Shown: piece after piece, positions 7,077 to 47,835 of the stretch
Position numbering within the stretch: position 1 is the first letter of the stretch
Layout of the letters: every line of letters starts with the position of its first letter
NCBI GenBank assembly: GCA_016930675.1
Contig: JAFGGG010000043.1
Span: 1-64,000, forward strand
Length of the DNA stretch: 64,000 bases
Direction of reading: 5' to 3'
Origin: Spirochaetales bacterium
GTDB taxonomy: Bacteria > Spirochaetota > Spirochaetia > SZUA-6 > RPPD01
Position numbers and translations under genes: made by a program
Notes under the pieces: generated by a model
Seen by the model: only the letters and a program-made list of their open reading frames with translations
What the model was told of the DNA's origin: nothing
Database searches by the model: none

Positions 7077-7135
7077 CAAGATCAACATGCCACCGGTAAA
7101 GCTGGCGGCTTTTTCGGAAGTAAAGCCGCCTTAAT
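7077..7135. repeat. Dispersed hairpin repeat family 2, short copy; terminator-like
   Basis: acatgccaccggtaaagctggcggctttttcggaagtaaagccgcc; 9-bp stem GGCGGCTTT/AAAGCCGCC; shares GGCGGCTTTTTCGGAAGTAAA with the other copies. Confidence 0.6.
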
Positions 7136-17727: not shown

Positions 17728-18066
17728 ATGGATGAGACCATTATGTCGAACAGCAAAGTCGGCAAACGTTTAAAGGGTTATAAAAAATTCGATGTGTTCA
17801 GTCTTACTTTTCAGGGAAAATCAATGCCCGTGGTAAGCTCCATCACCGTGGGCAGAGACAGAAAGAATAATATTCAAATTGACGATAACCTTACTTCCCG
17901 CCGGCACGCGGTAATTCAAAAGATCAAGGACGCCTACTTTATCAAAGACCTTAACAGCACAAACGGCACTTTTGTGAACAATAAACAAGTGCCGCAGGCA
18001 AAATATATAAAGCTGCACAGGAATGATGTAATTAAAATCGGTCGTACGGAAATAATAGTCACTTAG
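17728..18066 (+). CDS. Stand-alone FHA-domain protein
   Basis: 'ITVGRDRKNNIQIDDNLTSRRHAVIQK...FIKDLNSTNGTFVNNKQV'. Confidence 0.92.
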   Translation: MDETIMSNSKVGKRLKGYKKFDVFSLTFQGKSMPVVSSITVGRDRKNNIQIDDNLTSRRHAVIQKIKDAYFIKDLNSTNGTFVNNKQVPQAKYIKLHRNDVIKIGRTEIIVT

Positions 18067-18068
18067 AA

Positions 18069-18190
18069 GAGCTTCTTGCAAAAATATTATTTTTGCAAGA
18101 AACTCCTAAAATGGAAATTGTCAACTTATTATGGTATAAAGAATAAGTATTTTGCGAACTTAATATATTTTGAGTTTTGCAATTTTCTCA
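18069..18190. repeat. Dispersed palindromic repeat family 1, copy 1
   Basis: gagcttcttgcaaaaatattatttttgcaagaaactcctaaaatggaaattg...tatggtataaagaataagtatttt...tttgagttttgcaattttctca; high identity to 47680-47800. Confidence 0.85.
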
Positions 18191-18249
18191 GAAAACTAAA
18201 AAACCAAAACTAAAAAGCCTAACTCTTTAGTTTTTTTTTTAATACTACA

Positions 18250-31600: not shown

Positions 31601-32911
31601 TTATTCCTTTTTATAAACATACGCCGCGCCGCAATCAGTGCCGGTCCCGTTCTCACCATACGCTCCCACGATGGCATAATCTCCTGCCATAGCAACTGAA
31701 CAACCCAAATAATCATCATCTGCCGCGTCGCTTGCCGTAAGTTTTGTCACCTCTCCCCAATTGTCTGATCCTCCCTGATTGCGGTAATAGATATACACCG
31801 CCCCGCGATCACTGCCGGCTCCGTCTTCTAATTCTGCTCCGACGATGACGTAATCAACAGATATGGCTACTGAACTACCAAAGATATCACCATCTGCCGC
31901 ATCACTTGCCGTAAGCTTTATCACCTCTCCCCAGTTGTCGGCTCCTCCCTGATCGCGGTTAAAGATATACACCGCCCCGCGATCACTGCCGGCACCATCT
32001 TCCTCTTCTGCTCCTACAATGGCATGATCTTCTGAGATAGCCACAGAACAGCCAAAATAATCAACATTTGCCGCATCACTTGCCGTAAGCTTTTTAACCT
32101 CTCCCCAGTTGTTAGCCCCGCCCTGGTCGCGGTGATAGATATACGCCGCGCCGCGATTACTGCCGGCACCATCTTCAAGCCATGCGCCCACAATGGCATA
32201 ATCACCTGAGATGGCTACCGAACGGCCAAATTGATCTGTATCTTCCGCATCGCTGGCCGTAAGCTTTGTCACCTCTCCCCAGTTGTCGGCTCCTCCCTGA
32301 TCGCGGTTAAAGATATACGCCGCGCCGCGATTACTGCCGGCCCCATCTTCCAAAAATGCTCCCGCAACAGCATAATCCCCTGAGATGGCTACCGAACAAC
32401 CAAAATAATCATCATCTGCCGCGTCGCTGGCCGTAAGTTTTTTAACCTCTCCCCAGTTGTCGGCTCCTCCCTGATCGCGGTTAAAGATATACGCCGCGCC
32501 GCGATTACTGCCGGCTCCGTCTTCATAGTAGGCACCAACAATGGCATAATCACCTGATATAGCTACTGAGTAACCAAACAAATCAGTATTCTCCGCGTCA
32601 CTGGCCATAAGTTTGGTCACCTCTCCCCAGTTGTTTGATCCTCCCTGGTTGCAATAATAGATGTAAGCCGCTCCACGATTGCCAATTACTCCGTCTTCAT
32701 AGGGTGCACCCACAATGGCATAATCACCTGATACGGATACTGAATCGCCGAACCAATCATCAATTTCCGCATCGCTGGCCGCAAGCTTCTTTACTTCACT
32801 AAAGGACACCTCACCGCCTCCTCCTCCGCCTCCACTCTGCAGCGAACAGTCGGGAGTCAAAAAAATTGCCGCAACAACAAAAACAAATAAAAAGCCTTTT
32901 TTCATAATCAC
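31601..32911 (-). CDS. FG-GAP/beta-propeller repeat lipoprotein, seven tandem ~58-aa repeats
   Basis: Lipobox '...FLTPDCSLQSGGGGGGG'; repeats 'NWGEVxKLTASDAxxxDxFGxSVAISGDYAIVGAxxEDGAGSNRGAAYIFNRDQGGAD'. Confidence 0.9.
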   Translation of the reverse strand: MIMKKGFLFVFVVAAIFLTPDCSLQSGGGGGGGEVSFSEVKKLAASDAEIDDWFGDSVSVSGDYAIVGAPYEDGVIGNRGAAYIYYCNQGGSNNWGEVTKLMASDAENTDLFGYSVAISGDYAIVGAYYEDGAGSNRGAAYIFNRDQGGADNWGEVKKLTASDAADDDYFGCSVAISGDYAVAGAFLEDGAGSNRGAAYIFNRDQGGADNWGEVTKLTASDAEDTDQFGRSVAISGDYAIVGAWLEDGAGSNRGAAYIYHRDQGGANNWGEVKKLTASDAANVDYFGCSVAISEDHAIVGAEEEDGAGSDRGAVYIFNRDQGGADNWGEVIKLTASDAADGDIFGSSVAISVDYVIVGAELEDGAGSDRGAVYIYYRNQGGSDNWGEVTKLTASDAADDDYLGCSVAMAGDYAIVGAYGENGTGTDCGAAYVYKKE

Positions 32912-47679: not shown

Positions 47680-47800
47680 GAGCTTCTTGCAAAAATGTTA
47701 TTTTTGCAAGAAGCTCCTAAAATGGAAATTGCTAAATTAATATGGTATAAAGAATTAGTATTTTACTAACTTAATACCTTTTGAGTTTTGCAATTTCCTC
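47680..47800. repeat. Dispersed palindromic repeat family 1, copy 2
   Basis: GAGCTTCTTGCAAAAAT-gtt-ATTTTTGCAAGAAGCTC (17-bp perfect stem) then ctcctaaaatggaaattgc...tatggtataaagaattagtatttt...ttttgagttttgcaatttcctca. Confidence 0.85.
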
Positions 47801-47835
47801 AATTGATAATGCTTTTCGTCTGTCACTAGATTTGG

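Follow-up and report, generated by a model that had tools for sequence, protein, structure and literature searches.

MITEs of the IS1182 type are already known as a kind. MITEPye1 of Paracoccus yeei, the published example, is a non-autonomous, intergenic element with 4-bp direct repeats and long predicted stem-loops; its terminal repeats resemble those of IS1182-family elements (ISPye18), and it is thought to be mobilised in trans (PMC11578231). MITEPye1 occurs in 1-3 copies per chromosome and has 18-bp repeats (PMC11578231). IS1272 of Staphylococcus, also a member of the IS1182 family, is reported to target stem-loops and to replace them without a target duplication (PMC5678879).

The window analyzed here, a 64,000-nucleotide stretch from a Spirochaetales bacterium, holds two copies of an unannotated 121-bp repeat, family 1, which is new as a family. 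Family 1 very probably consists of non-autonomous MITEs of the IS1182 kind, mobilised in trans by an IS1182-type transposase whose nature is judged from the elements of relatives. It would thus belong to a known kind, since MITEPye1 has already been published as an IS1182-type MITE. Compared with MITEPye1, to which it is likened by description, family 1 has 21 copies, a one-sided 37-bp terminal palindrome, variants carrying cargo, and a clustering at stop codons. It differs from IS1272, within the same broad family, in making 4-bp duplications and in having empty sites that are not stem-loops. ISUnCu17-like IS1182 insertion sequences share the end motif GAGnnnnTTGCAAAA and the 4-bp target duplication, but they are autonomous elements of ~1.2-1.5 kb with a DDE transposase gene, whereas the MITE is geneless and has the ends alone in common with them.

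Copies, borders and target-site duplications

Copies A and B in the window are 90% identical over 122 nt in a pairwise comparison. The BLAST E value of 2e-42 excludes chance as the source of this likeness and bears out the sequence-only reading, which had described two near-identical copies. That reading gave copy A a span of ~120 bp, 18069-18190. The element does lie there, but comparison of all copies sets the borders of the unit from GAG to CTC, 121 bp, so that copy A ends at 18189 and base 18190 belongs to the target duplication. The features of the two copies are as follows.

18065-18068, no strand: left 4-bp target-site duplication of copy A, AGAA (from the sequence, copy table and per-position identity)
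18069-18189, + strand: MITE copy A, 121 bp, hairpin end first (from the sequence, BLAST, copy table and covariance model)
18069-18083, + strand: left terminal inverted repeat of copy A, GAGCTTCTTGCAAAA; the same motif ends IS1182-type insertion sequences
18069-18105, + strand: left terminal palindrome of copy A, 37 bp, 17-bp stem with one C.A mismatch, 3-nt loop ATT
18106-18174, + strand: internal part of copy A, AT-rich, with imperfect inverted repeats not conserved across copies
18175-18189, - strand: right terminal inverted repeat of copy A, GAGAAAATTGCAAAA on the - strand
18190-18193, no strand: right 4-bp target-site duplication of copy A, AGAA
47676-47679, no strand: left 4-bp target-site duplication of copy B, AATT
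47680-47800, + strand: MITE copy B, 121 bp, hairpin end first, 41 bp after hisF
47680-47694, + strand: left terminal inverted repeat of copy B, GAGCTTCTTGCAAAA
47680-47716, + strand: left terminal palindrome of copy B, perfect 17-bp stem, loop GTT
47786-47800, - strand: right terminal inverted repeat of copy B, GAGGAAATTGCAAAA on the - strand
47801-47804, no strand: right 4-bp target-site duplication of copy B, AATT

The terminal inverted repeats, GAGCTTCTTGCAAAA on the left and GAGGAAATTGCAAAA on the right, carry GAGnnnnTTGCAAAA at both ends of the element, which has no coding capacity and contains no ORF of note in its 121 bp. Copy A follows the TAG of a 112-aa protein with an FHA domain (Pfam FHA), and the upstream neighbor of copy B is hisF (Pfam His_biosynth). 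The distances of 3 and 42 bp from the stops given in the sequence-only reading become 2 bp (FHA) and 41 bp (hisF) with ORF ends at 18066 and 47638. The AG of the left AGAA at 18065-18068 forms the last two bases of the TAG stop of the FHA gene.

Two copies were claimed from the window; the genome-wide covariance search proposed with that claim brings the total to 21. The genome searched comprises 3.23 Mb in 46 contigs and is 78% complete. BLAST finds ~20 copies in it, and a covariance model built on 13 full-length copies finds 21 places, its other matches, outside the 21, being either weak remnants or the terminal palindrome read on the opposite strand. The copies are ~82-97% identical to copy B, a divergence of up to about 18%, and their lengths vary from 87 to 249 bp. 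Three longer copies (186, 187 and 249 bp) have a second repeat inserted mid-element, one copy shortened to 87 bp retains a perfect target duplication, and L019, L028 and L350-L354 are truncated or decayed remnants. The element is absent from the two genomes of the same taxonomic family.

Several lines of evidence indicate that these copies, which occupy unrelated sites, arrived by transposition. The 4-bp flanking duplication is perfect in 16 of the 20 scoreable copies and matches at 3 of 4 positions in the other 4, whereas left and right flanks taken from different copies yield only 9 4-bp matches in 380 pairs. This is the outcome of the check for target-site duplications that the sequence-only reading had suggested. 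The duplication has a fixed width: perfect matches fall to 1/20 at width 3 and 0/20 at width 5, and per-position flank identity is 18-20/20 within the 4 bp against 1-12/20 beyond. When the element and one duplication are removed, the gene ends at the same codon position with its stop kept at 14/14 gene ends. These empty sites are computed reconstructions; no actual empty allele was seen, because a further genome from the genus was not found.

Family 1 is therefore a MITE family, given its 4-bp duplications, its GAGnnnnTTGCAAAA ends, and rebuilt sites that restore gene ends. It displays the features by which MITEs are recognized, as it is short without a transposase gene and has terminal inverted repeats, a fixed-length duplication, and dispersed copies. 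An unannotated dispersed repeat is thus settled as transposon-derived, and the earlier proposal of a mobile palindromic unit holds, resting on the terminal inverted repeats, on 4-bp duplications in essentially all copies, and on the restored empty sites.

A different route of spread is known for REP/BIME palindromes, which move by a RAYT (HUH) transposase or in the manner of IS200/IS605, with no need of terminal repeats or duplications. Family 1 resembles such extragenic palindromic repeats in having one end that is a strong hairpin, in its extragenic copies, and in the existence of composite copies. However, HUH transposition leaves no target duplication, and REP/BIME units lack both target duplications and DDE-type terminal repeats. 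Family 1 has both: exact 4-bp duplications in 16/20 copies and a motif common to the two ends that also occurs on insertion sequences with DDE transposases. The duplications in effect rule out a REP/RAYT or IS200/IS605 derivative, a reading to which we give next to no weight.

Ends shared with IS1182-type insertion sequences

The end motif and the duplication length of family 1 are shared with insertion sequences elsewhere, and therefore IS1182-type transposition is indicated. A related end pattern occurs 12-39 times in each of three same-order genomes (G008, G013 and G022), where its reversed control is almost absent, and several of the short elements in them are flanked by 4-bp duplications. 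When public genomes were scanned for the exact 17-base left end, ~20 sites came from Spirochaetes bacterium GWE1_32_154. These mark a different MITE family, flanked by perfect 4-bp duplications, in which a left hairpin end and a right end enclose a variable middle, as they do in family 1. The MITEs of these four genomes resemble family 1 in end motif and 4-bp duplications but have unrelated interiors, as separate families from the same ends.

The same scan matched a decayed insertion sequence in Aestuariivita sp. CAR1_bin_6 (L284), 615 bp long with the same ends, whose remnant reads as a transposase C-terminus; it appears to be an internally deleted IS1182-type element on its way to becoming a MITE. 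Its transposase match in the same Aestuariivita genome (L292) adjoins a GAGCCTCTTGCAAAA end. The best NCBIfam model for the L292 protein is IS1182, and its plasmid relatives are annotated as IS1182 or ISUnCu17 (PGAP: IS1182). ISUnCu17 of Aeromonas caviae extends from GAGCCTCTTGCAAAA to (reverse) GAGCTTCTTGCAAAA and is flanked by the duplication ATGA. In Comamonas its duplication is TGGT and in Acinetobacter TTAG.

Closer to the window, genomes of its own class contain insertion sequences of 1217-1481 bp bearing the end motif, with 0-1 mismatch per end and perfect duplications: ACTT (L323), ATTG (L324), TTTA (L345), GCCT (L326), TAGG (L327), CTTA (L328), TTAA (L330) and TCTA (L349). ISUnCu17 and several of the class elements have a 15-base motif at each end. 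In two cases, L325 of genome G059 and the right end of ISUnCu17, 16 of the 17 terminal bases are those of the MITE left end. Through such IS1182-type elements, present in the class and on proteobacterial plasmids, family 1 also has ends common to an autonomous element, which lends further support to a mobile palindromic unit.

All six transposases scanned have IS1182 as their best NCBIfam match. Their scores of 80-105 bits fall below the curated cut-off of 270, as does that of ISUnCu17 itself, so these proteins would be divergent members of IS1182. The transposases also score against IS5-family models, and the genome of family 1 lacks a transposase that would prove the pairing, both of which would suit mobilisation by a DDE transposase of another family acting on the same ends (IS5-like, IS701 and similar). 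Against this, an IS1182-like transposase is present in every genome with a full insertion sequence of these ends. Searches for an ISAzo13-type mobiliser (PF07592) in this genome and in relatives found no element with these ends, nor did searches of relatives for an IS701-type mobiliser (PF13546), where a single match, L177, was left out of close inspection. A mobiliser from another family is accordingly improbable, and an IS1182-type enzyme remains the preferred candidate.

No DDE_Tnp_1 (PF01609) and no ISUnCu17-type transposase was found in the 78% complete draft; insertion sequences are frequently missing from draft assemblies. We infer movement in trans because no IS1182-type element was found in this incomplete genome. 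Relatives contain a few PF01609 transposases, none with these ends, and viral contigs scanned for the end motif showed no paired ends at insertion-sequence length. A literature search returned no paper linking TCTTGCAAAA with a transposase and inverted repeats.

In the proposed mechanism, an IS1182-type transposase would bind both ends of the 121-bp unit in trans, excise or copy the unit, and join it at a 4-bp staggered cut, repair of which would produce the 4-bp duplication. The source of the enzyme may have since been lost, may lie in an unassembled part of the genome, or may have been present only transiently. The combination of GAGnnnnTTGCAAAA with a 4-bp duplication provides a testable signature tying MITE families of several Spirochaetota to IS1182-type transposases. 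If this reading is true, mutation of GAG or TTGCAAAA in the ends would be expected to abolish transposition.

The terminal palindrome and the RNA reading

The left 37 bp form a near-perfect palindrome. The 17-bp first stem described in the sequence-only reading is perfect in the copy at 47680 but has one C.A mismatch in the copy at 18069. Over 19 copies, double-sided changes occur in 6 of the 17 pairs, as in CTTCATGT/ACATGAAG and CTTTGTGC/GCACAAAG, and 0/500 shuffles reach the observed values. The second half, described as an imperfect cruciform, is indeed one in the copy at 47680 but is broken in the copy at 18069 and in most others; 1/13 copies retain the pair that closes GGTATAAAG...CTTAATACC. 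Because it shows no covariation above shuffles and several inner pairs fail, the second cruciform belongs to copy B and does not characterise the family. The search for compensatory changes, likewise suggested at the outset, thus succeeds in the left hairpin and fails in the second half.

The structured 3'-UTR RNA, also raised in advance, would be an attenuator, terminator or mRNA-stabilising hairpin selected for its RNA fold. Favoring this, the fold is much more stable than that of shuffled sequences (z of -10.2 for the copy at 47680 and -4.5 for the copy at 18069), the left hairpin has its six double-sided pairs, and half of the copies lie <=15 bp from a stop codon. However, any DNA palindrome folds about equally on both strands, and the reverse strand of these copies folds nearly as well (z of -9.6 and -3.6). 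No Rfam match occurs in the window at the gathering threshold.

The loop and the stem suggest another origin for the covariation. The three-base loop reads GTT in 5 copies, whereas 6 have the reverse complement, AAC, and CTT and AAG are also found; these orientations are counted per copy and not as flip events. Conversion between GTT and AAC is not readily achieved by point mutation. At position 4, the C.A reflects a change of one arm in some copies, and in one copy both arms bear this change. This arm pattern is what arm-to-arm copying or hairpin inversion would give. Since both are DNA processes, covariation in the left hairpin is no proof of an RNA role. The left end may have become a near-perfect 37-bp palindrome by repeated copying of one terminal-repeat arm onto the other within a DNA hairpin.

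Genomic location also weighs against an RNA function. Stop-adjacent sites are balanced in orientation, 7 hairpin-first and 7 hairpin-last, and several copies (L003, L004, L005, L013 and L028) lie between divergent genes. Together with strand symmetry, the second half devoid of covariation, the lack of Rfam matches, and 4-bp duplications that mark arrival by transposition, this makes a structured 3'-UTR RNA very improbable. Caution is due before hairpins of this sort are taken for riboswitch-like RNAs.

Gene ends and inserted repeats

A stop codon lies within 15 bp of one end in 11 of 21 copies, whereas 8% of the window's intergenic bases lie that close (binomial P ~1e-7, with a null drawn from one 64-kb window and simple ORF calls), and the duplication often overlaps the stop codon. 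Although intergenic DNA makes up only ~10% of the window, simple ORF calling shows no copy splitting a gene that joining its flanks would clearly make whole, a 143-aa frame at L002 being a weak exception. The GWE1_32_154 MITEs are stop-adjacent in 5/17 cases (8.5% expected), and 4 of 13 other elements, comprising eight insertion sequences and five MITEs, have a stop no more than 7 bp away.

Part of this clustering could be due to purifying selection against other sites, and a target preference for gene ends is possible. It is conceivable, if rather doubtful, that elements of this end group target the stop codon or gene 3' end and that the 37-bp palindrome flips and copies its arm, so keeping a perfect transposase-binding end. 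If true, targeting might act via some feature of terminating transcription or translation, and would allow elements to multiply in compact genomes without gene damage. Stop-codon clustering offers a simple hypothesis for how a small element multiplies in a genome that is ~90% coding. Three features merit specialist attention: the palindrome, which is confined to one side and apparently flips, the copies with cargo, and the clustering at stop codons.

Two copies have unusual structures. L350 (G000 C36:274178-274208) is possibly a minimal element of ~37 bp, GATGAAATTGCAAAAATGTTATTTTTACAAGAAACTC, with imperfect flanking repeats CAAT/CAAC, in which the terminal palindrome alone may act as the unit. 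L009 (G000 C46:3073-3196), 124 bp, has TTTTTCTTCCAACTT in its loop, possibly a footprint left after loss of an inserted element of the second family.

This second repeat family has cores in the window at 7115, 8214, 12637, 39503 and 59078, and also lies inside the family-1 copies L014, L015 and L018. It starts with TTCCGAAAAAGCC(A/G)CC and has one or two strong hairpins, and its longer copies end in ...GTATGTTGAT. All five window copies directly follow TTTAC or TTTGC; within the MITE, the second family follows the native TTTTAC of the loop, without duplication. It looks like a miniature element of the IS200/IS605 type (HUH). Three MITE copies that differ in their target duplications carry it at a single loop position, which suggests that the composite elements transposed. 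In the GWE1_32_154 MITE family (among L178-L254), the middle modules are interchangeable, either a TGCGATTATATCGCA hairpin or a GGTTGCATGCCCGAGCAGTAATGTAC... block, so that constant IS1182-type ends enclose modular interiors in more than one spirochaete.

Elsewhere in the window, a 436-aa ORF at 31601-32911 (- strand) contains six in-register 174-bp direct repeats (31613-32782) that are 73-79% identical, and its protein is built of 58-residue repeats.
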